From contig NZ_JOJL01000001.1 of assembly GCF_000721705.1 (NCBI RefSeq), positions 124,001-188,000 of the forward strand: a DNA stretch of 64,000 nucleotides, in the 5' to 3' direction. Shown here one piece after another: positions 2,847-42,762 of this stretch. The stretch's first letter is position 1. Each line of letters begins with the position of its first letter. This stretch comes from Actinoplanes subtropicus (GTDB lineage Bacteria; Actinomycetota; Actinomycetes; Mycobacteriales; Micromonosporaceae). The translations under genes were made by a program, and so were the position numbers. The notes under the pieces were generated by a model. That model was not told the origin of the DNA. It worked only from the letters and a program-made list of their open reading frames with translations, and did not search any database.

Positions 2847-3826
2847 CCGGCCCGGTCGACGATCGCCATCCGGAGCTGGGCGGTCCAGCCGAGCACCGCG
2901 TCCTTCGGCAACCCGGGGTGGTCCCCGGCCACGACGTCGCGCTCGCCGAGGAACGCGTAGGTCGAGGCGTCGAAGATCAGTTCGTAGCTCTGGCCCTGGT
3001 CGGCGCGGCACACCGCGATGCCCCGGCGACCGGAGAGGTCGGCCTGCTTCTTCACGGTGGTGCCCGGGATCGTGGCGGCGGCCTCGAAGAGCGCGGCCAC
3101 CGCGCGGGGCGGCACATACTCCTCCCGGAGCGTGTCGCCGACCTTGGTGAAGGCCATCGTGTCGGGGCTCAGGTCGGACTTGCGGGCCGGGTCGGGCTTG
3201 GCGGAGTAGAGGTAGGCCCGCATGGCGGTCGCGTCGGTGGGGAGGTCGTCGCGGTACGGCGAGGGCAGCCGCACGCCCGGCGCGTCCTCGTTCCCCAGCG
3301 GGATGGTCTGCACCTTGCCGCCGTTCGCCCGCTGCTGCCGCAACAGGCCGGGGCGGGTGCCGTCGACCGAGAGCCAGACCCGGCGGAGCTTCTCGACCGG
3401 CGGCTGGTAGCCCGTCGTCCCGATCGTGCCGGGGGTGGCGGAGTTGCCGAGGGCGGTCGTGGCCCCGGCCCAGGCGACCCGCGACTCCACGTAGAGGAAC
3501 TGGTCGGGACGTGCGGTCAGCAGCGGGTCGCGGCGGGCCTCGGCGGCGGCCAGGCGCAGCACCCCGGCCGCGTCGGTGGCCGGGGAGCCCGGCGAGCCGT
3601 GGGCGGCCGGCGGAGTCGGGACCGGTGCGTGGCCCGTCCCGCCGAGCACGACGGCGGCCGCCACCACGGCGGCGAGCGCACCGGCCGGGATCAGTCCCCA
3701 CTGCCAGCGGGCGCGGCGCCGGGGCGCCGGGTCGTGGAACATCCGGGCGCGGGCCCGGCTCAGCACGGCCGGCTCGGCCGGCGGCAGGTCGGCGCGGAAG
3801 CGCTCGACCAGGTCGAGGTCACTCAT
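2834..3826 (-). CDS. CU044_5270 family membrane protein, partner of the ECF sigma factor
   Basis: 330 residues. It opens MSDLDLVERFRADLPPAEPAVL, the usual start of CU044_5270 family proteins, then has one transmembrane segment (about 45-65: LIPAGALAAVVAAAVVLGG) and a large extracytoplasmic domain. The family is encoded next to ECF sigma factors and is thought to act as a membrane regulator of them. Its ATGAGTGA start overlaps the last 8 bp of the sigma-factor gene, so the two are co-translated. No zinc anti-sigma motif is present. The signal sensed is unknown. Confidence 0.85.
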   Translation of the reverse strand: MSDLDLVERFRADLPPAEPAVLSRARARMFHDPAPRRRARWQWGLIPAGALAAVVAAAVVLGGTGHAPVPTPPAAHGSPGSPATDAAGVLRLAAAEARRDPLLTARPDQFLYVESRVAWAGATTALGNSATPGTIGTTGYQPPVEKLRRVWLSVDGTRPGLLRQQRANGGKVQTIPLGNEDAPGVRLPSPYRDDLPTDATAMRAYLYSAKPDPARKSDLSPDTMAFTKVGDTLREEYVPPRAVAALFEAAATIPGTTVKKQADLSGRRGIAVCRADQGQSYELIFDASTYAFLGERDVVAGDHPGLPKDAVLGWTAQLRMAIVDRAGQLP

Positions 3827-4391
3827 CGTCGTCTCCAGGAAGGTCGGGGAGGGCGGAACGGATGCGCTTGCGGGCGCTGTGCAGGCGGGAGCGGACCGTC
3901 CCGACCGGGACGTCCAGGGCCCGGGCCACCTCGGGATAGCTGAGCTGGGCCTGGGCGATCAGGGTCAGTACGTCGCGCTCGCCGGCCGGCAGCTTGGCGA
4001 GCACGCCGGCCAGCGCGCGCACATCGCCGGCCGCCGTCACCCGGGCGTCGGAGTCCTCGGAGGCGTCGTAGACCGGGTCGACCCCGGTGCGGGCGAGCGC
4101 CCGGTACTGCCGGACCTCGGCGCGCTGATGGCCGCGAAGCAGGTTGGCGGCGATGCCGTACAGCCAGGGCCGGCAGTCCGCATGCGACATGTCGTACTTA
4201 TCGCGACTGCGGAAGGCGATCAGAAACGTCTCCGCGGTCAGGTCGTCGGCGAGCAGCGGCCCGACCCGGCGGGCCAGGTAGCGGTGGATGGTGGCGGCGT
4301 GCCGGTCGAAGATCTGCCCGAAGGCCTCCGGATCGGCCGCCGACTGCCGGATCAGGTCGTGGTCGCCCACGACGACGGCGGGTGGACTCAT
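3819..4391 (-). CDS. ECF-type sigma-70 family RNA polymerase sigma factor
   Basis: 190 residues from the ATG at 4391, which sits 7 nt after an AAAAGGGG ribosome site; a TTG 18 bp upstream is less likely. Region 2 (FDRHAATIHRYLARRVG, then LTAETFLIAFRSRDKY) and region 4 (LTLIAQAQLSYPEVARALDVPVGTVRSRLHSARKRIR) are both complete. It would direct RNA polymerase to a small regulon, probably under control of the overlapping CU044_5270 membrane protein. It is divergent from the HerA-like operon. Confidence 0.9.
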   Translation of the reverse strand: MSPPAVVVGDHDLIRQSAADPEAFGQIFDRHAATIHRYLARRVGPLLADDLTAETFLIAFRSRDKYDMSHADCRPWLYGIAANLLRGHQRAEVRQYRALARTGVDPVYDASEDSDARVTAAGDVRALAGVLAKLPAGERDVLTLIAQAQLSYPEVARALDVPVGTVRSRLHSARKRIRSALPDLPGDDDE

Positions 4392-4488
4392 GCAGGGTCC
4401 CCTTTTCAACGAGTCGTCACCCGGTCATTGACCGATCGGCGGCAATCGGTTCGATGTCGGGCGCGCCTCCACAGCCCGGGCAAGATCT

Positions 4489-4529
4489 TGTGGATAAATC
4501 TGTGGATGGCCACCAGAAGTTGTGGACAA
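4489..4529 (+). promoter_or_regulatory. Cluster of three DnaA-box sequences upstream of the herA-like operon
   Basis: Three same-orientation sites lie within 41 bp: TGTGGATAA at 4489-4497 (exact complement of TTATCCACA), TGTGGATGG at 4501-4509 (7/9), and TGTGGACAA at 4521-4529 (exact complement of the actinobacterial TTGTCCACA box). They sit 50-90 bp before the herA-like ATG, inside the likely promoter region. No dnaA, dnaN or other oriC gene is nearby, so this looks like a DnaA-regulated promoter or DnaA-titration site rather than an origin. Confidence 0.55.
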
Positions 4530-4579: not shown

Positions 4580-6364
4580 ATGATCCGCGTGTCTGACGAA
4601 GCTGAGCTTCCCCGCAGCGGAAAACTGAATGCAAAACCGGACAATGACCCCGTCGGGCGGGTTCTCGGTACCGCCGATGCCACGCCGCTCCAGTTCTGGA
4701 CGGCCGTGACCCCGGGGAGCTACCTGCAGCTCGACGACGTCGTGGTGACCCAGCGCGAGCTGCCCGACCGCGAGCCGGTGACGATCGCCGGGGTGGTCAC
4801 CCAGGTTCGCGCGCGGCACGAGGGCGCGCAGTTCGACTCCGACGTCTTCGCCATCGCCGAGGGCACGCTGCCGGCCCTGGTGCAGGAGGCGGCCGAGATC
4901 ACCACCACCCGGGTCGACCCCGAGCTGTATGTGCCGCCTGCCCCCGGCGCCGTCGTGCACCGGGCGGAGGGCAGCGCGCGCGACGCGGCGCTGCACTTCG
5001 ACCGAATGGAGCGGCGCATCCCGATGGGCACCGGCCGCGACGGCGTGCCGGTCTTCCTCAATGCCGACTTCCTCGACGGCACCCGCGGCGCGCACGTCTC
5101 GATCTCCGGCATCTCCGGCGTGGCCACCAAGACCAGCTTCGCGACGTTCCTGCTCTACTCGGTGTTCCGCTCCGGCCAGCTGGGCGCCGACGGGGCCAAC
5201 GCGCGCGCCCTGATCTTCAACGTCAAGGGCGAGGACCTGCTGTTCCTCGACCACGCGAATACGAAGCTCGACCAGCCGACGACCGCGGCGTACAAGCTCT
5301 TGGAACTGCCCGCGACCCCCTTTTCCGACGTACGCGTCTACGCGCCCCCACGCGCCGGCGACTCGTCCGGCGCGCCCGACGTGAGCAGCCGGCTGACCGG
5401 GGTCGACGCGTTCTACTGGACGCTCGAGGAGTTCTGCGACCGCAAACTGCTGCCGTACGTGTTCGCCGACGCCGACGACGAACGCCAGCAGTACACGATG
5501 GTGGTCCACTCGGTGACCGCCCACCTGAACCGGTACGCGGTCGCCGCCGAGGGCGGGATCAGCATCGACGGCCGGCGTATCTCGTCGTACGGCGATCTGG
5601 TCGACCACATCGTCGAGCAGCTCACCGACGACGACACCCGGTCCACCTGGGCCGGCAGCGCGGTCAACATGGGCACGGTCAACGCGTTCGCCCGCCGGCT
5701 GATCGGCAGCAAGCGCGACCTGTCCCGGCTGATCCGCGGCGACCTGGCCACCCGCCGTCCCCACCAGATCAAGACCGCCGAGTCGGCCCAGGTCACCGTC
5801 GTCGACCTGCACAATCTCCCCGATCGCGCGCAGCGCTTCGTGGTCGGCGTGACGCTGAAGACCGAGTTCGACGAGAAGGAGAAGGCGGGCACCGGCCGCC
5901 CCCTGCTGTTCGTGGTGCTCGACGAGCTGAACAAGTACGCCCCGCGCGAGGGCAGCTCCCCGATCAAGGAGGTGCTGCTCGACATCGCCGAGCGCGGCCG
6001 CTCGCTCGGCGTGATCCTGATCGGCGCCCAGCAGACCGCGAGCGAGGTCGAGCGCCGCATCGTGACCAACTCGGCGATCCGGGTGGTCGGCCGGCTCGAC
6101 CCGGCCGAGGCGGCGCGGCCCGAGTACGGCTTCCTCCCGCCGGCCATGCGGCAGCGCGCCCTGCTGGCCCGGCCCGGCACGATGTTCGTCAACCAGCCCG
6201 ACATCCCGGTCCCGCTCTGCGTCGAGTTCCCGTTCCCGGCCTGGGCCACCCGCAAGTCCGAGTCCGGCCCGCCGCCGGCCGCCTCGATGCGCTCGATCGT
6301 CCAGGGCGCCGATCCGTTCGCGGTGGTGGGCCGCCCCGGCGCCGACGACGACATCCCGTTCTAA
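4580..6364 (+). CDS. HerA-like ATP-dependent DNA translocase (FtsK/HerA ATPase)
   Basis: 594 residues. The N-terminus (about 20-130) resembles the HerA beta-barrel (HAS-barrel) region. The RecA-type ATPase core follows, with an unusual P-loop GISGVATKTS near residue 177, Walker B RPLLFVVLDELNKYAP, and the HerA/FtsK run DIAERGRSLGVILIGAQQTASEV followed by RIVTNSAIRVVGRLD. HerA hexamers pump DNA to the nuclease NurA and, with Mre11-Rad50, resect double-strand ends in archaea. Here the gene is first in an operon with sbcD, sbcC and a NurA-like gene, 9 bp before sbcD. GAGG lies 4 nt before the ATG. The last P-loop glycine is replaced by Thr while Lys and Thr remain. Confidence 0.85.
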   Translation: MIRVSDEAELPRSGKLNAKPDNDPVGRVLGTADATPLQFWTAVTPGSYLQLDDVVVTQRELPDREPVTIAGVVTQVRARHEGAQFDSDVFAIAEGTLPALVQEAAEITTTRVDPELYVPPAPGAVVHRAEGSARDAALHFDRMERRIPMGTGRDGVPVFLNADFLDGTRGAHVSISGISGVATKTSFATFLLYSVFRSGQLGADGANARALIFNVKGEDLLFLDHANTKLDQPTTAAYKLLELPATPFSDVRVYAPPRAGDSSGAPDVSSRLTGVDAFYWTLEEFCDRKLLPYVFADADDERQQYTMVVHSVTAHLNRYAVAAEGGISIDGRRISSYGDLVDHIVEQLTDDDTRSTWAGSAVNMGTVNAFARRLIGSKRDLSRLIRGDLATRRPHQIKTAESAQVTVVDLHNLPDRAQRFVVGVTLKTEFDEKEKAGTGRPLLFVVLDELNKYAPREGSSPIKEVLLDIAERGRSLGVILIGAQQTASEVERRIVTNSAIRVVGRLDPAEAARPEYGFLPPAMRQRALLARPGTMFVNQPDIPVPLCVEFPFPAWATRKSESGPPPAASMRSIVQGADPFAVVGRPGADDDIPF

Positions 6365-6373
6365 GGTTCTGCG

Positions 6374-7525
6374 ATGCGCATCCTGCACACCTCCGACTGG
6401 CATGTCGGAAAGGTCCTCAAAGGCCGCACCCGGCACGAGGAGCACATCAAGGTGCTGGCCCAGGTGGTCGAGATCGCCCAGGCCGAGCAGCCTGATCTGG
6501 TGATCGTGGCCGGTGATCTCTACGACACCGCCGCGCCCACGGCCGACTCGACCCGGGTGGTCACCCGCGCGCTCTCCGCGCTGCGGCGTACCGGGGCGCA
6601 GGTGGTGGCGATCGGCGGCAACCACGACAACGGCGCGGCCCTGGATGCGCTGCGTCCCTGGGCCGAGGCGGCCGGCATCGTCCTGCGCGGGTCATTTCGG
6701 GAAAATCCGGACGAATTGCTCGTCCAGGGTGAGACCGCGAGCGGCGAACGCTGGCAGTTGGTCACCGTGCCGTTCCTCTCTCAGCGCTACGCCATCCGGG
6801 CGTCCGAAATGTACGAATTGACGGCGGCGGAGGCGACCCAGACGTACGCCGATCACATCGCCCGGCTGATCGAGAAGCTCAGCGAGCCGTTCGCCGAGCC
6901 GGGCGTGATCAACCTGGTGACGGCCCACCTGACCATCGTCGGGGCGTCGGCCGGCGGCGGCGAGCGCGAGGCGCACACCATCATGGGCTACGCCGTGCCC
7001 GCCACCGTCTTCCCGCGGAACGCGCACTACGTCGCCCTCGGCCACCTGCACCGCGCCCAGCAGGTGATCGCGCCCTGCCCCACCCGGTATTCCGGGAGCC
7101 CGCTCGCGGTGGACTTCGGCGAGGAGGAGAACGTGCCCTCGGTCGCCATCGTCGAGGTGGCCACCGACAAGGCGGCCCGGGTGCGGGACGTGCCGATCTC
7201 CTCGGCCCGCGCGCTGCGTACCGTCCGCGGCACGCTCGACCAGCTCGCCACGGTGAACCTTCCGGATGCCTGGCTCCGTGTCCTGGTGCGCGAGTCGCCC
7301 CGGGTCGGCCTGCGCGAGGACGTGCAGGAGCTGCTGCCCAACGCGCTCGAGGTGCGGATCGACCCAGAGATGTTGCCGAACAAGGCGGGGGAGCGGATGG
7401 CGCAGCGGGCCGGCCGGTCGCCGCGCGAGCTGTTCGGTGACTACCTGGACAGTCGCGGGAACGCCGAGGAGGGCGTCCGCGAGCTCTTCGACGAGCTGTA
7501 CGACGAGGTGAGCAGCAACTCATGA
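6374..7525 (+). CDS. sbcD: Mre11/SbcD-type exonuclease subunit
   Basis: 383 residues, normal for SbcD. All metallophosphoesterase motifs are present: TSDWHVGK (Asp8, His10), VIVAGDLYDT, AIGGNHDN, TAHLTIVG and ALGHLHRAQQ. These bind two manganese ions. The enzyme is a 3'-5' exonuclease and hairpin endonuclease working with the SbcC ATPase on blocked or broken DNA ends. It follows the HerA-like gene by 9 bp and precedes sbcC by 70 bp. Confidence 0.95.
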   Translation: MRILHTSDWHVGKVLKGRTRHEEHIKVLAQVVEIAQAEQPDLVIVAGDLYDTAAPTADSTRVVTRALSALRRTGAQVVAIGGNHDNGAALDALRPWAEAAGIVLRGSFRENPDELLVQGETASGERWQLVTVPFLSQRYAIRASEMYELTAAEATQTYADHIARLIEKLSEPFAEPGVINLVTAHLTIVGASAGGGEREAHTIMGYAVPATVFPRNAHYVALGHLHRAQQVIAPCPTRYSGSPLAVDFGEEENVPSVAIVEVATDKAARVRDVPISSARALRTVRGTLDQLATVNLPDAWLRVLVRESPRVGLREDVQELLPNALEVRIDPEMLPNKAGERMAQRAGRSPRELFGDYLDSRGNAEEGVRELFDELYDEVSSNS

Positions 7526-7595
7526 GTGAGCGCAGCGAACGCAGGTGGCTCAGTGGCCTTGCCGACGGCGCGGCGGAGCGAAGCGTGGCCGGGTC
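7526..7595. repeat. 70-bp sbcD-sbcC spacer with short GAGCG(C/A)AGC motifs
   Basis: The only sizeable gap in the operon contains GAGCGCAGCGAACG directly after the sbcD stop and GGAGCGAAGCG about 45 bp later. The complement of the second motif (CGCTTCGCTCC) recurs at about 26895-26907 between the cellulase and GMC genes. I have seen GAGCGAAGCG motifs repeatedly in actinomycete intergenic DNA, so this is a possible REP-like element. No ribosome site for sbcC is obvious in it. Confidence 0.4.
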
Positions 7596-10094
7596 ATGAG
7601 GCCCATCCGGCTGGACATGTCCGGGTTCACCGTCTTCCGCGACGACACCACGGTGGATTTCACCGACGCCGACTACTTCGCGCTGGTCGGGCCGACCGGC
7701 TCGGGCAAGTCGACGGTGCTCGACGCGATCACCTTCGCGCTGTACGGCACCGTCCCGCGCTGGGGCGGCGCCCGCGGCATCGCCAACGCGCTCGCCCCGT
7801 CCGCCGCCGAGGCCAAGGTCCGGCTGGTCTTCGAGTCGGCCGGCGACCGCTACGTGGCCACCCGGGTGGTGCGCCGGGACGGCCGCGGCAACGTCAAGAC
7901 CGCCGGCGCCGGCCTGCAGCTGATGCCCACCGGCTTCGACGTGACCAAGCTGGACACCGGCATGGACCTCGACGACCTGGGCGAGGTGCTGGCCGGCACC
8001 CCCGCCGAGATGGACGAGGCGGTCCTGGGCGCGGTCGGCCTGCCGTACGAGCAGTTCACCAGCTGCGTGGTGCTGCCGCAGGGCCAGTTCGCCGACTTCC
8101 TGCACGCCAAGCCGGCCGTCCGGCAACAGATCCTGATCAACCTGCTCGGCCTGCGCGTCTACGAGGACGTGCAGCAGCGGGCGGTGGCCCGGGAGCGCAC
8201 CGCCACCGACAAGCTCGGCGTGATCGAGCAGCAGCTGGCCGGGCTCGCCGATGCGACCGACGAGGCGGTCGACGCGGCCGACCAGCGGCTGACGCGGATG
8301 AGGGAGCTGACCGTCGCCGTCGAGGAGTCGGTTCCGGGGCTGCGATCCGCCCGCGCCGCCGAGGCCGAGGCCGCCGCCGCCCGCGACGCCCTGGAGGCGG
8401 AGTTGCGTGCGCTCGGGGCCGTCCGTACGCCCGAGGGAAGTGCGGAGATCGCCGGCGCGACGGCGGCAGCCAGGGCGAGCGCCGCGGAGGCCGCGGAGGA
8501 GGTGCGGGTCGCCGAGGAGCGCGAGGAGAAGGTGCGCGGCGAGCTGGCCGCCGCCGGGGACGTGGGCTCGCTGAAGCTGCTGCTCGACCGGCACGCCGAG
8601 CTCGACCGGCTGCTCGGGCAGGAGGAGTGGTTCGCCGGCGAGGTGCAGGTCGCCGAGGTCGAGTTCAAGGACGCGCAGGCCGCGGCCGAACTCGCGCACG
8701 GCGCCCACCTCGGCGCCACCCAGCTGCTCGAGCAGGCCCGGCTCGACTACACCGAGGCGCAGCGGATCGACCGAGCGGCGGCGCTGCGCGCGCACCTGGT
8801 GGCCGGCGACCACTGCCCGGTCTGCGAGCAGACCGTCACCACCGTCCCGGCCATGCCCGAGGGCTCGGCCGTGCGCGCGGCCGAGGCCACCGGCAAGGCC
8901 GCCCGGGCCGCCGCCGAGGTCGCCGAGTCGGGCTGGAAGCAGCGCGACGCGGTGGCCCGCAAGCTGGAGGGCAACCTCGAGCGCAAGCGGGCCCAGCACG
9001 AGCACCACCTGTCCCGGCTGGCCGAGGTCCGCGCCGTGGTGGCCGGCTCGCCCGGCGTGCCGGCGCTGGAGCGTCAGGTCGCCGAGATCGACTCGTTGCA
9101 GCGCAAGCTCGACCAGTCCGGCACGGCGGTCCGCGCCGCCCGCGAGGCGCAGCGGCGGGCGCAGGCCGCGGCCCTGCGCGCCGAGGAGCGTGAGCGCACC
9201 GCGTGGCGCACCTTCGACCAGGTCCGCGACGGGGTGGCCCGGTTCGGCCCGCCGCCGGCCGAGCGCGACGACCTGGCCGCCGCCTGGTCCGTCCTGGTCG
9301 GCTGGGCGGAGGGTGAGCACCGCGGCCGGGTCGCCGCGCGGGACGAGGCGGACGCGCGGGTCAGCGCCGCGCACGAGGCCACCGTGCACGCGTACGCGAC
9401 GATCGCCGCCCTGTTCACCGCGGCCGGGCTGGCCGCGCCGCCGCACCGTGAGGGCAACGGGGAGGCCGACCTGATCCGGGCGGCCGCCGTCGCCGCCACC
9501 ACCGCCGAGGGGGACCGCGAAAAGATCGCCGACCGGCGCGACCGGGTGCGGGAGCTGAGCGAGCAGCGGATGACCCTGCAGCGCGACGGCCGGGTGGCCA
9601 AGGCGCTCGCCGGTCACCTGCGGGCCAACAACTTCGAGCGCTGGCTGCTCGAGGAGGCGCTGGACCTGCTGGTCGACGGCGCGTCCCGGCTCCTGCGCGA
9701 GCTGACCGGCGGCCAGTACGACCTGATCCACGACAAGGGCGAGTTCTCCGTGATCGACCACCACGACGCCGGGCTGCGGCGCGCGGTGCGCACGCTCTCC
9801 GGCGGCGAGACGTTCCAGGCGTCGCTCGCCCTGGCGCTGGCGCTCTCCGAGCAGCTGGCCGGCCTGTCGTCCACCGCGGCCAGCCTTGAGTCGATCGTGC
9901 TGGACGAGGGCTTCGGCTCGCTGGACGCCGCCACGCTCGACGTGGTGGCCGCCACCCTGGAGAACCTCGCCGCCCGTGGCGACCGGATGGTCGGGTTGGT
10001 GACCCACGTGACCGCGCTGGCCGAGCGGGTGCCGGTGCGCTTCGAGGTGAGCAAGGACGCCCGGTCCGCCCGGGTGGAGAGGGTCGGCCTGTGA
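7596..10094 (+). CDS. sbcC: Rad50/SbcC-type SMC-like ATPase subunit
   Basis: 832 residues from the ATG at 7596, chosen because the conserved N-terminus MRPIRLDMSGFTVFRDD begins there. Walker A GPTGSGKST is at 32-40, the zinc hook CPVC at 407-410 sits in the middle of long Glu/Ala/Arg coiled coils, and the C-terminal head has the ABC signature TLSGGETFQASLALALALS and Walker B LESIVLDEGFGSLD. SbcC forms the ATP-driven tether and clamp of the SbcCD end-processing nuclease. It is somewhat short for SbcC, so its coiled coils are shorter than in E. coli. Its stop overlaps the start of the NurA-like gene as GTGA. Confidence 0.95.
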   Translation: MRPIRLDMSGFTVFRDDTTVDFTDADYFALVGPTGSGKSTVLDAITFALYGTVPRWGGARGIANALAPSAAEAKVRLVFESAGDRYVATRVVRRDGRGNVKTAGAGLQLMPTGFDVTKLDTGMDLDDLGEVLAGTPAEMDEAVLGAVGLPYEQFTSCVVLPQGQFADFLHAKPAVRQQILINLLGLRVYEDVQQRAVARERTATDKLGVIEQQLAGLADATDEAVDAADQRLTRMRELTVAVEESVPGLRSARAAEAEAAAARDALEAELRALGAVRTPEGSAEIAGATAAARASAAEAAEEVRVAEEREEKVRGELAAAGDVGSLKLLLDRHAELDRLLGQEEWFAGEVQVAEVEFKDAQAAAELAHGAHLGATQLLEQARLDYTEAQRIDRAAALRAHLVAGDHCPVCEQTVTTVPAMPEGSAVRAAEATGKAARAAAEVAESGWKQRDAVARKLEGNLERKRAQHEHHLSRLAEVRAVVAGSPGVPALERQVAEIDSLQRKLDQSGTAVRAAREAQRRAQAAALRAEERERTAWRTFDQVRDGVARFGPPPAERDDLAAAWSVLVGWAEGEHRGRVAARDEADARVSAAHEATVHAYATIAALFTAAGLAAPPHREGNGEADLIRAAAVAATTAEGDREKIADRRDRVRELSEQRMTLQRDGRVAKALAGHLRANNFERWLLEEALDLLVDGASRLLRELTGGQYDLIHDKGEFSVIDHHDAGLRRAVRTLSGGETFQASLALALALSEQLAGLSSTAASLESIVLDEGFGSLDAATLDVVAATLENLAARGDRMVGLVTHVTALAERVPVRFEVSKDARSARVERVGL

Positions 10095-11047
10095 CGAGGA
10101 TGTTCGTCGACGCGTGGGACCCGTCGTACGGGTCGTCCTTCGAGGGTGGCGAGGACGGCCCGGCCTCGCCGTCGAGTGCTCAGGTCGACACCGACGTCGA
10201 GGTGCCGGCCGCCGAGTGGGCCCCGATCGACGTGCCCCCTGGCCGGCGCGCGCCCGACGTGGTGTTCCTGGTGGACGGCGTGCGGCGCAACGACGCCGGG
10301 CTCTGGACCCAGGAGGAGGACGGCACCTCGTACGCCGGCCTGGCCGCCTCGTTCGCCGCCGGGGTGGTCCGCTGCGACCTGGGCCGCGGCTCGGCCGAGC
10401 TGGTCGACGCGCGGGTCGGGCGGGGCCTGTTCACGGCCAGCCCCTCCGCGCAGGACCTGCAGACCGGAATGATCCGGTACGAGGTGCATCGGGTCTCCGG
10501 CCAGGGCGAGGCGAGCAAGCTGCCGGCGGCGGTACAGCCGCAGCTGACCGCGCTGGAGATCGAGATCTCGGCCATGGCCCGGCAGACCGAGGACCTGCTC
10601 GTGGTGGACGGCCCGCTGCGTAACCGGCGTCACCTGCCACGCACGCTGGGCTTCGTGAAGCGCCAGCAGTCGCAGTATCTGTCCGCGACGCTGAACGCCG
10701 TGGTCACCGCCTTGAAGCCGGGCCAGCGCACCCCGGTCTTCCATCTGGGCACGGTCTGGGGCGGCTGGTCGTGGTATCTGCGGCTGCCCGGCGGCTCGGG
10801 CGCGCCCTGGTCGGGCATCGTCCGGGTGGAGTGTTCGCCCGATCTCACTCCGGAGCAGGCGATCGAGCTGGCCGAGCTGTCCGGGGCGACGCTGCCGCGG
10901 TTCGCCTCGTCGGCGTACAAGGATCCGCGCGCCCCGCAGAACCTCGTGCCGATCGCCGGCCTGGAGCGGCGGCTGCGCGGGATGCTCGGCGACGCCCGGG
11001 TCCTGCATCGGGCGTTGACGCTGGCCACTTCGCGTAATCGGGCATAA
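10091..11047 (+). CDS. NurA-like nuclease
   Basis: 318 residues starting at a GTG that overlaps the sbcC stop (GTGA); an ATG three codons in is an alternative. The protein has the NurA layout: VVFLVDGVRR (Asp62), DLLVVDGPLRNRR (Asp173), and a C-terminal segment with KDPRAPQNLVPIAGLERRLR. NurA is a dimeric manganese-dependent 5'-3' nuclease driven by HerA. Sequence similarity in this family is low, so the assignment rests on the two acidic motifs, length and the operon with HerA, SbcD and SbcC. It is usually annotated only as a hypothetical protein. Confidence 0.7.
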   Translation: MTRMFVDAWDPSYGSSFEGGEDGPASPSSAQVDTDVEVPAAEWAPIDVPPGRRAPDVVFLVDGVRRNDAGLWTQEEDGTSYAGLAASFAAGVVRCDLGRGSAELVDARVGRGLFTASPSAQDLQTGMIRYEVHRVSGQGEASKLPAAVQPQLTALEIEISAMARQTEDLLVVDGPLRNRRHLPRTLGFVKRQQSQYLSATLNAVVTALKPGQRTPVFHLGTVWGGWSWYLRLPGGSGAPWSGIVRVECSPDLTPEQAIELAELSGATLPRFASSAYKDPRAPQNLVPIAGLERRLRGMLGDARVLHRALTLATSRNRA

Positions 11048-11200: not shown

Positions 11201-11257
11201 GGCATATCGGTCGTGATGGATTGATTTGATCGATTCAATGATCGTCGCCGATATGCC
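11201..11257. repeat. 57-bp interrupted inverted repeat
   Basis: Perfect 10-bp arms GGCATATCGG (11201-11210) and CCGATATGCC (11248-11257) enclose a second partial palindrome with ATTGA and TCAAT arms around a GATC centre. It could be a terminator of the nuclease operon or a protein-binding site in the sigma-factor upstream region. Confidence 0.4.
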
Positions 11258-11390
11258 CGTGCCGCCCCCCACACGACACCGGAGGACAGTTGACCCCCCG
11301 CGTCCCGGAAATTTCCGCGAGAGCGTTGATCCCCCCAGGTCCCCCCGCCCGTATCTCAGGCGACGGGGAAGGCTCCGGGCGGAGGTATCA

Positions 11391-12059
11391 ATGCATGCGG
11401 TGGTCGAGGAACGGCTCGCGCCGGGCGGGGTGTGCCTGATGACACAACAGAGGTCCGGCGGCCATTGGCAGTCCCTCGACGGCGGCCGCGGTGACGGTGG
11501 CTCGGTGATTCCCCGGCAGGCGCCGCGGCACGGCTCCTCGGAGCCGAGCCACGAGGACACCCTCGTCAAGATGCTGTACGAGGAGCACGCCGGCCCGCTG
11601 CTGATGTTCGTGCTGCGCCTGACCGGCGGCGACCGGCAGCGCGCCGAGGACATCGTGCAGGAGACCCTGCTGCGGGCCTGGCGCAACGCGCACCGGCTCG
11701 GCGCGCAGGGCCAGCAGTCGCTGCGTCCGTGGCTGGTGACCGTCGCCCGGCGGATCGCCATCGACGACCACCGCAGCGCGAGCGCCCGCCCCGCCGAGAC
11801 GTACGACCGTGAGCTGGAGAGCTTCCCCAGCACGGCGGACGACACCGACCGCGTCCTGCAGTCGATGACCGTCTCCGATGCCCTCCGCGAGCTGTCCCAG
11901 TCGCACCGTGAGATCCTGATCGAGACGTACTTCCGGGGCCGGACGGTGCCGGAGGCGGCGGAGAAGCTCAACCTTCCGTTGGGTACCGCCAAGTCACGCG
12001 TGTATTACGCTCTGCGTGCGCTGCGTACCGCGCTGCAGCAGCGGGGGGTGACGGAGTAA
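11391..12059 (+). CDS. ECF sigma factor
   Basis: 222 residues from the ATG at 11391, which follows GGCGGAGG by 5 nt; the frame upstream is open but unlike a sigma factor. Region 2 reads LYEEHAGPLLMFVLRLTGGD then AEDIVQETLLRAWRN; region 4 reads LSQSHREILIETYFRGRTVPEAAEKLN then GTAKSRVYYALRALR. The first 55 residues are an extra low-complexity extension. The TAATG junction couples it to the anti-sigma gene. Together with the secreted genes downstream it looks like a cell-envelope stress or surface-protein regulon. Confidence 0.9.
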   Translation: MHAVVEERLAPGGVCLMTQQRSGGHWQSLDGGRGDGGSVIPRQAPRHGSSEPSHEDTLVKMLYEEHAGPLLMFVLRLTGGDRQRAEDIVQETLLRAWRNAHRLGAQGQQSLRPWLVTVARRIAIDDHRSASARPAETYDRELESFPSTADDTDRVLQSMTVSDALRELSQSHREILIETYFRGRTVPEAAEKLNLPLGTAKSRVYYALRALRTALQQRGVTE

Positions 12060-12832
12060 TGACGCAGGAAGAGCACTACGACGTTGCGTCGTACGCGCTG
12101 GGTGTGCTGGACCAGCACGATGCCGCACGTTTCGAAGATCATCTCATCGAGTGTCCACGCTGCGCGTTCGAGCTCGAGTCCTTCGTGCAGGTCGCCGACC
12201 TGCTGGCGGATGTCGACGCGAGCGCCGTGGTGGCCGCCGAGGAGGTCAAGCGCGACGGCCTCGTGCTGCACAAGATGCTGGGCGAGGTGCGGACGGAGCG
12301 GCGCCGCGCCAACAGCCGGCGGCTCTATTCACTGGCCGCGGCCGTGGTCATCTTCGCGATGCTTTCGATCGGCGCGCTGTTCGCCGGCGGGAAGTGGTTC
12401 GCTCCCGACCAGAAAACGAACCAGACCGCCCAGCGCGGCAGTTCGCAACTCGACCCGCTGCCCAATGCGCAGGACGGCCCGGGTATCGGTGGTCCCGAAC
12501 TGACCGGGCAGAAATACAGCGGCACCGATCCGCGCTCCGGCGTGCATGCCGACGTGGCCCTGGAGAAGAAGGATTTCGGCACGCAGATATCGCTCGCCGT
12601 CTCCAGCATCAAGGGTCCGCTGGAATGCCGGATGGTGGTGGTGCACACCGACGGCACCACCGAGTCGCTCGGCTCCTGGACGGTGGGGGAGAAGGGCTGG
12701 GGCACCGCCGCCAATCCGAGCCCGCTGCTGTTGCAGGCGGTCACCGCGACGCCACGTGAGGACATCGCGCACGTCCAGGTGCAGGAGGTCACGTCCTCCG
12801 GCGGCGGCGAGACGCTGGTCCGCGTACCGTAA
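12059..12832 (+). CDS. Zinc-finger anti-sigma factor, membrane anchored
   Basis: 257 residues. The cytoplasmic N-terminus carries the zinc anti-sigma signature H-x3-C-x2-C (His28, Cys32, Cys35 in FEDHLIECPRC), one transmembrane helix follows at about 90-110, and about 145 residues are outside the membrane. The start overlaps the sigma stop by one base (TAATG). It should hold the sigma factor inactive until an envelope or redox signal releases it. A strong hairpin terminator follows the gene. Confidence 0.9.
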   Translation: MTQEEHYDVASYALGVLDQHDAARFEDHLIECPRCAFELESFVQVADLLADVDASAVVAAEEVKRDGLVLHKMLGEVRTERRRANSRRLYSLAAAVVIFAMLSIGALFAGGKWFAPDQKTNQTAQRGSSQLDPLPNAQDGPGIGGPELTGQKYSGTDPRSGVHADVALEKKDFGTQISLAVSSIKGPLECRMVVVHTDGTTESLGSWTVGEKGWGTAANPSPLLLQAVTATPREDIAHVQVQEVTSSGGGETLVRVP

Positions 12833-41878: not shown

Positions 41879-41951
41879 GCGGGCGTAGCTCAAATGGTAG
41901 AGCAACGGTCTCCAAAGCCGTCTGTCGTGGGTTCGATTCCTGCCGCCCGTG
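41879..41951 (+). tRNA. tRNA-Trp (CCA)
   Basis: 73-nt cloverleaf. Acceptor GCGGGCG pairs with CGCCCGT (a G-U first pair), D stem GCTC/GAGC, anticodon loop CTCCAAA with CCA, T loop TTCGATT, discriminator G. No CCA tail is encoded. The T stem has G-U pairs, so it is a less regular tRNA-Trp than the usual actinobacterial one. Confidence 0.85.
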
Positions 41952-42296
41952 CGCGCCATTTTCCGTACCATTGAATAGCCTTTGAATGTCCCAGAAATAG
42001 GGGCGAGGAGCGGCGGTCACGCGGGCCGGCTGCGGCGGGTGAGGCGACCGCCGGGTTAGCTGGACGGGACTACTTGCGCTACCCGGCCAACGCGGTCGCC
42101 GCCGCCCTCGCCCGACGACATCCGTCGACCACCGATCCTGCCGTCCCCGCGCGGCGTCCGGCTTCCGCACGGCGTGGTCATCGTCGCGCCGCGGTCGCCT
42201 TCGGTGCCGTTGCCACGGGCGGGTCAGCCGTGACCAGTTCAGTCGTGACCGAGATGTGCCGCCGTGCCGCCACCGTTGTCGGCGCCGCGGTCTGGA
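41952..42296. other. 345-bp gap inside the tRNA array
   Basis: I see no gene or tRNA here. It contains GAGGCGACCGCCGGGTTAG near 42041, which closely resembles part of the 125-bp repeat at 56263-56387 (GAGGCGACCGCCGGGCTGAG), with a GGTCACGC match about 25 bp before it. It may be an old diverged repeat copy. Confidence 0.4.
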
Positions 42297-42369
42297 GGGC
42301 TCGTAGCTCATCGGGAAGAGCGTCCGTCTTGCAAACGGAAGGTGGCCGGTTCGAGCCCGGCCGGGTCCA
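42297..42369 (+). tRNA. tRNA-Ala (TGC)
   Basis: 73-nt cloverleaf with perfect anticodon stem TCCGT/ACGGA, loop CTTGCAA (anticodon TGC) and perfect T stem GCCGG/CCGGC. The acceptor GGGCTCG/CGGGTCC has a G3-U70 pair, the classic alanine identity element, which supports the isotype. No encoded CCA. Confidence 0.85.
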
Positions 42370-42410
42370 CGAGCGGTGGGGCCGCGGACCATCACCGCTC
42401 CCACACCAGC

Positions 42411-42483
42411 GTCGTCGTAGCTCAGCGGTAGAGCGCCGCCCTCATAAGGCGGAGGCCGGATGGTTCGACACCGCCCGACGACA
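42411..42483 (+). tRNA. tRNA with CAT anticodon (Met or Ile2)
   Basis: 73-nt cloverleaf: acceptor GTCGTCG/CGACGAC perfect, D stem GCTC/GAGC, anticodon stem CCGCC/GGCGG with loop CTCATAA. The T stem GATGG/CCGCC has one A-C mismatch and the T loop is TTCGACA. CAT could be elongator Met or Ile read with lysidine. No encoded CCA. Confidence 0.75.
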
Positions 42484-42487
42484 TCAC

Positions 42488-42604
42488 ACCCCTGTGGCGC
42501 AATGGAGAGCGCGTCGGATTACCGTCTTCAGTCCTCTTACGGGCGGTGGGCGGGGTGGTCGGATGGGAGTCCGAGGGTTGGGAGTTCGAGTCTCCCCAGG
42601 GGTA
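42488..42604 (+). tRNA. tRNA-like gene interrupted in the anticodon loop (Arg-like body)
   Basis: All four stems are perfect: acceptor ACCCCTG (42488) with CAGGGGT (ends 42603), D stem GCGC/GCGC, anticodon stem TCGGA (42514-42518) with TCCGA (42570-42574), T stem GGGAG/CTCCC with loop TTCGAGT. The anticodon loop is 51 nt (42519-42569) instead of 7, so 44 nt are inserted. The tRNA body (TGGCGCAATGG and GGTTGGGAGTTCGAGT) looks like tRNA-Arg, but the anticodon cannot be assigned. It could be an intron-bearing tRNA or a decayed one. It is packed 4 nt from each neighbour. Confidence 0.55.
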
Positions 42605-42608
42605 CTGC

Positions 42609-42682
42609 GCGTCGCTAGCTCAACTGGCCAGAGCATCCGGCTCTTACCCGGAGGGTTCAGGGTTCAAGTCCCTGGCGGCGCA
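42609..42682 (+). tRNA. tRNA-Lys (CTT)
   Basis: 74-nt regular cloverleaf: acceptor GCGTCGC/GCGGCGC (one T-G pair), D stem GCTC/GAGC, anticodon stem TCCGG/CCGGA with loop CTCTTAC, T stem CAGGG/CCCTG with loop TTCAAGT, discriminator A. No encoded CCA. Confidence 0.9.
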
Positions 42683-42684
42683 CT

Positions 42685-42762
42685 CGCAGGGTGGAGCAGC
42701 TCGGAGTGCTCACCGGTCTCATACGCCGGAGGTCGTGGGTTCGAATCCCACCCCTGCAACCA
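42685..42762 (+). tRNA. Initiator tRNA-fMet-like (CAT) with encoded CCA
   Basis: The unpaired C1-A72, the TGGAGCAG start of the D arm and the CAT anticodon are initiator marks. CCA is encoded (42760-42762), unlike in the others of the array. The anticodon stem is CCGGT/GCCGG, so one of the three G-C pairs typical of initiators is replaced by T-G. It begins 2 nt after tRNA-Lys and ends 10 bp before the convergent SDR stop. Confidence 0.8.

Follow-up and report, generated by a model that had tools for sequence, protein, structure and literature searches.

A HerA-SbcD-SbcC-NurA gene cluster in Actinoplanes and its relatives, and its probable role in DNA-end processing

Introduction

The ATPase HerA and the nuclease NurA have been described in Deinococcus radiodurans, where two NurA and six HerA subunits form a complex (7f6d, 7wrw, 7wrx); this complex is a pump for duplex DNA that degrades the 5' strand during translocation (PMC9960219). 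Deinococcus nurA and herA were deleted together "as an operon" (PMC9960219). In Oceanithermus profundus, the bacterial herA (hepA) is followed downstream by sbcD and sbcC, which was read as resembling the archaeal arrangement, and in Thermus nurA precedes hepA (PMC5448004). The archaeal operon, herA-nurA-mre11-rad50, unites four functional parts (PMC12977600, PMC5448004). A 2026 paper places bacterial herA-nurA in Deinococcus-Thermus and considers them likely transferred from archaea (PMC12977600). Here we analyze a 64,000-nucleotide stretch of Actinoplanes subtropicus DNA (contig NZ_JOJL01000001.1, positions 124,001 to 188,000; the window), in which herA, sbcD, sbcC, and nurA form a head-to-tail array on the plus strand between positions 4580 and 11047.

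The cluster holds the same four functional parts as the archaeal operon. Its HerA belongs to the same subfamily as Deinococcus HerA, with the P-loop SGISGVATKT, and its NurA has the same fold as Deinococcus NurA and retains the catalytic residues. The window's pair is linked to sbcDC, a neighbor that the passages of PMC9960219 do not mention for the Deinococcus pair, and in contrast to O. profundus, nurA comes last in this family, after sbcC. We propose that the four genes probably specify a single DNA-end-processing pathway, a housekeeping chromosomal repair operon of the Micromonosporaceae that would act beside an AdnAB-like resection enzyme. A bacterial precedent has already been published for O. 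profundus (PMC5448004); what the present survey adds is a broader distribution, another gene order, and a possible link to DnaA. No report of the cluster in Actinomycetota was found in titles and abstract openings of the open-licence literature.

Results

The first gene, herA (4580-6364, plus strand), encodes a 594-residue protein that matches D. radiodurans HerA (7f6d_B) with a phmmer E value of 8e-149 in two stretches (query residues 22-325 and 356-562). Its motifs SGISGVATKT, VKGED, and LDELN align to Lys-175/Thr-176, Asp-220, and Asp-487/Glu-488, all named in the Deinococcus study (PMC9960219). Homology across both main parts and the alignment of these five residues identify a Deinococcus-type HerA, a DNA-pumping ATPase; the preliminary description of this locus had noted an FtsK/HerA-type ATPase. 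No Pfam family matches the protein at E ≤ 1, and none of the PADLOC HerA defence models matched along most of the model's length (the best, PDLC01055, reaches 22.8 bits over query residues 404-550).

The last gene, nurA (10091-11047, plus strand), has a GTG start that overlaps the sbcC stop and encodes 318 residues with an RNase H-like NurA fold. Among sequences of solved structures, it matches D. radiodurans NurA (E 7.4e-22) and Thermotoga maritima TM1739 (E 0.0049). The catalytic Asp-53, Lys-201, and Arg-309 of the Deinococcus enzyme (PMC9960219) align to Asp-62, Lys-190, and Arg-280, which are invariant in 43 of 43 aligned rows. A NurA-like nuclease with two Asp motifs had been suggested; these are probably Asp-62 and Asp-173, both unchanged in the same 43 sequences, and the fold comparison that could have overturned the assignment agrees with the sequence instead. 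Our assignment rests on the structure and on the match to D. radiodurans NurA, not on the Pfam family PF09376, a scan of the whole genome with which returned no matches at E ≤ 0.001. Naming of this protein is uneven, NCBI mostly giving hypothetical protein and UniRef often NurA domain-containing protein (homologues considered were the best 120 of 6666 matches for NurA, and elsewhere the best 120 of 8000).

Between them lie sbcD (6374-7525, plus strand; 383 residues) and sbcC (7596-10094, plus strand), encoding an Mre11-type nuclease and a Rad50-type ATPase. SbcD passes TIGR00619 (181.7 bits, cut-off 77.65) and PF00149 (52.8 bits, cut-off 21.5) and contains the sequences DWH, GDLYD, GNHD, TAH, and GHLH, which we take to be the metallophosphatase motifs. 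SbcC passes PF13476 (62.7 bits) and PF13558 (39.6 bits, cut-off 27 for both) and scores 249.1 bits with TIGR00618, under its cut-off of 478.5. It has a split ABC-type ATPase, a CPVC zinc hook, and the SbcC Walker B domain, with GPTGSGKS, LSGGE, and LDEGFG presumably serving the functions known for these motifs. The earlier observation of a complete SbcD and SbcC is confirmed.

Direct reading of the sequence also bears out the tight four-gene operon, with 9 bp between herA and sbcD and a GTGA overlap of sbcC and nurA. We place the sbcC start most likely at ATG 7596 instead of GTG 7545 as in the open reading frame (ORF) listing, because conservation sets in there and because relatives such as locus L064 begin sbcC at the sbcD stop. 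The two genes are 70 bp apart here, whereas L064 shows a direct stop-start overlap. This spacing coincides with an insertion-like stretch (7520-7599, plus strand) with TCATGAG at each end: about 74 bp appear inserted and enclose a 25-codon ORF (MSERSERRW...), whose start overlaps the sbcD stop and whose stop overlaps the sbcC start, so that stop-start coupling is kept. One further genome (G412, locus L075) has different DNA at this junction, yet has AGGTGGCTCAG in common with the window.

Within the family, 247 of 250 genomes and 42 of 44 genera have NurA, and HerA is present in all 45 family representatives (one genome per genus plus the window's own, 44 genera). In 39 of these 45, a 12-kb stretch of one strand holds all four genes (coordinates entered by hand from search tables, as a rule one place per gene), and herA and sbcD are less than 0.5 kb apart in 35 of the 39. 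Five of the six exceptions (G419, G427, G399, G413, and G397) are cut short by a contig end that falls in sbcC or sbcD. The survey could have shown that the genes are not neighbors in related genomes; it found the opposite. Being so widespread in the family and present in loci labeled as other phyla, the cluster is no peculiarity of this organism.

HerA occurs in 17 of 296 genomes of the class and 100 of 396 of the phylum. Among genomes picked for their HerA match, the cluster is present in 7 of 7 from the class and 24 of 28 from the phylum, the latter divided equally between the orders herA-sbcD-sbcC-nurA (12) and nurA-herA-sbcD-sbcC (12). Of the four without it, G183 is a split assembly, and the remaining three genomes have no more than a distant HerA (30-32% identity), the other three genes giving no match. 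In G146 the four genes are matched at two loci, on contigs C33 and C15, the C15 HerA sharing 30% identity with that of the window, the others matching partly; this genome apparently holds two clusters. A second SbcD (31-36% identical) lies away from the cluster in G424, G748, G880, G796, G183, and G726, and clustered and free SbcD therefore coexist. G374 has a further SbcD/SbcC match elsewhere in the genome.

A wider scan (one genome per species, best 80 of 481 relatives kept) recovered the complete cluster in 55 of 80 loci, with nurA first in 35 and last in 20. The other 25 are incomplete, 20 of them running off the end of the locus; L239 has no nurA within 2.3 kb after sbcC. Cluster-bearing records are labeled Chloroflexi or Dehalococcoidia, Gemmatimonadetes, Acidobacteria, Spirochaetaceae, Thermaceae, Cyclobacteriaceae, and a Pseudomonadales metagenome-assembled genome (MAG), labels of MAGs being possibly wrong. 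On a HerA tree of 68 rows (58 of the 80 named loci after removal of near-copies and short pieces, 9 further loci, and the window), the two gene orders require two changes, little more than would follow from nurA having moved once. The placement of L123 and of the Thermaceae row L237, which has a long branch, is ambiguous, and some rows labeled nurA-herA-sbcD-sbcC show nurA-herA only. A divergent HerA cluster was seen in L167-L169, G374, and G113, which include Acidimicrobiales-like genomes and a Pseudonocardia-labeled MAG; the L167 HerA is 79% identical to that of G374, and L167-L169 stand apart from most Actinomycetota on the tree.

Upstream of herA, about 50-91 bp ahead of the gene, we located a three-part DnaA-box element on the minus strand. 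It consists of two perfect boxes, TTATCCACA (4489-4497) and TTGTCCACA (4521-4529), and a weaker site between them (4501-4509) with two mismatches to TTATCCACA. TTGTCCACA is a listed high-affinity DnaA box of Streptomyces coelicolor and Mycobacterium tuberculosis (PMC4285127). Three boxes are observed in the window, compared with 0.18 expected, and 87 in the genome, compared with 28 for the pattern read backwards; the genome-wide set includes several other close pairs, and the pair TGTGGATAA...TGTGGACAA at a spacing of 5-35 is found in three places. Such close pairs lie on contigs C4, C8, C16, C28, C29, and C45 of genome G000 and could represent a DnaA regulon; many boxes at C29:113142-133531 may mark an origin region.

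Within 300 bp of herA, 16 of 22 same-genus genomes carry a perfect box (29 boxes; 0.04 in shuffles), all 22 carry a box with at most one mismatch, and the three-part element aligns in all 22, regions that are not independent, since 19 of the 20 added ones are best NurA matches and one comes from lower down the list. In the same-genus sequences inspected, the boxes persist while the DNA farther upstream varies, and they therefore seem to belong to the herA operon. Perfect boxes are present in 4 of 37 other genera of the family (6 with at most one mismatch), which speaks against a family-wide rule. At 42 loci elsewhere we found no perfect box and 4 with at most one mismatch, the 4 sites being near the shuffled level (1.7, largest 4). 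Similar triplets lie upstream in L065, L073, and L101.

The operon is preceded by an ECF-type sigma factor gene (3819-4409, minus strand) and followed by a sigma factor gene and a zinc-finger anti-sigma-like gene (11226-12832, plus strand). Four of seven flanking ORFs have Pfam matches (two sigma factors, the anti-sigma-like zinc-finger protein, and a lipoprotein repeat) and three have none. Five tRNA genes (Trp, Ala, Met, Lys, Met) cluster at 41879-42762 of the window.

Discussion

SbcCD acts on blocked DNA ends. In the pathway that we favor, this bacterial Mre11-Rad50 would recognize and open blocked, hairpin, or protein-bound double-strand ends, after which a HerA hexamer would thread onto the end and pump duplex DNA into a NurA dimer; NurA would cut the 5' strand, leaving a 3' tail for RecA. 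We infer that SbcCD passes ends to HerA-NurA in this organism. The Actinoplanes-type pair most likely works as the Deinococcus complex does, because the named active-site residues are kept. Near-universal presence in the family argues for DNA-end repair rather than a patchy phage defence, and this retention points to a chromosomal repair operon more than to a defence island. Of the repair or defence role offered in the preliminary description, the first part thus gains from our survey and the second gains no support. The bacterial version of a full archaeal resection machine that it proposed here holds as far as the four parts and their conserved neighborhood are concerned, whereas the HerA-NurA pair is of the bacterial Deinococcus type and not specially close to the archaeal proteins. 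Nor does the cluster probably substitute for RecBCD or AddAB, as was implied: the genome also encodes two tandem PDDEXK_1 proteins that look like AdnAB, and HerA-NurA would therefore be an additional, second resection route.

Several observations weigh against a joint repair pathway. The HerA equivalog model NF040819 gives 11.3 bits, far from its cut-off of 970, and NurA scores 12.8 bits (E 0.085) with PF09376, under the cut-off of 21. In four of the 39 family clusters, herA and sbcD are separated by 2.6-4.6 kb, and G435, the sixth exception in the family, is a true separation, with 6.1 kb downstream of herA lacking sbcD. Loci L175-L177 (two labeled Eremiobacterota) show the nurA-herA pair but no sbcDC in the available DNA, L240 has herA alone, and the HerA-NurA pair can therefore stand apart from sbcDC. 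Clustering may also reflect shared regulation without shared mechanism. Deinococcus or Thermus mutants that lack nurA or herA are summarized as having modest or even improved resistance to damaging agents (PMC9960219), and a 2026 study of Thermococcus kodakarensis doubts a role in resection and proposes an antiviral one (PMC12977600). Our comparative data do not settle this published dispute over HerA-NurA resection (PMC12977600).

The genes could be co-expressed and their products act separately, with SbcCD working on hairpins and blocked ends, and HerA-NurA processing ends or forks in connection with replication and in step with DnaA. The DnaA-box element in all 22 same-genus genomes, the nurA-herA loci without sbcDC (L175-L177), and the other end-resection candidate in the genome would all fit this scheme. 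However, sbcDC remains with herA-nurA across divergent bacteria and despite the change in gene order, and an interaction of Mre11 with HerA has been reported in archaea (PMC2288612); we regard separate action as unlikely. That HerA-NurA serves mainly to attack the ends of phage or plasmid DNA entering the cell, with help from SbcCD and in the manner of HerA with SIR2 or DUF4297, is improbable in view of the near-universal presence in the family, the antiviral proposal for T. kodakarensis notwithstanding. TdpAB has a role in defence and, unlike the window's cluster, has to our knowledge no link to SbcCD.

From the box sequences we infer that DnaA binds the element ahead of herA, which would tie expression of the operon to replication. 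More tentatively, in Actinoplanes in the wide sense, DnaA might directly control HerA-SbcDC-NurA through the three boxes, keeping end processing in step with replication, with the clustered SbcCD being the dedicated partner of HerA-NurA in bacteria and not the general SbcCD. A keyword search of the open-licence literature found no report of a DnaA link to this cluster.

An SbcCD-linked cluster that is kept through a cultivable family and recurs in loci labeled as other phyla provides comparative evidence for a repair role of HerA-NurA. It makes the question of resection by this pair testable in a mesophile that probably possesses another resection enzyme.
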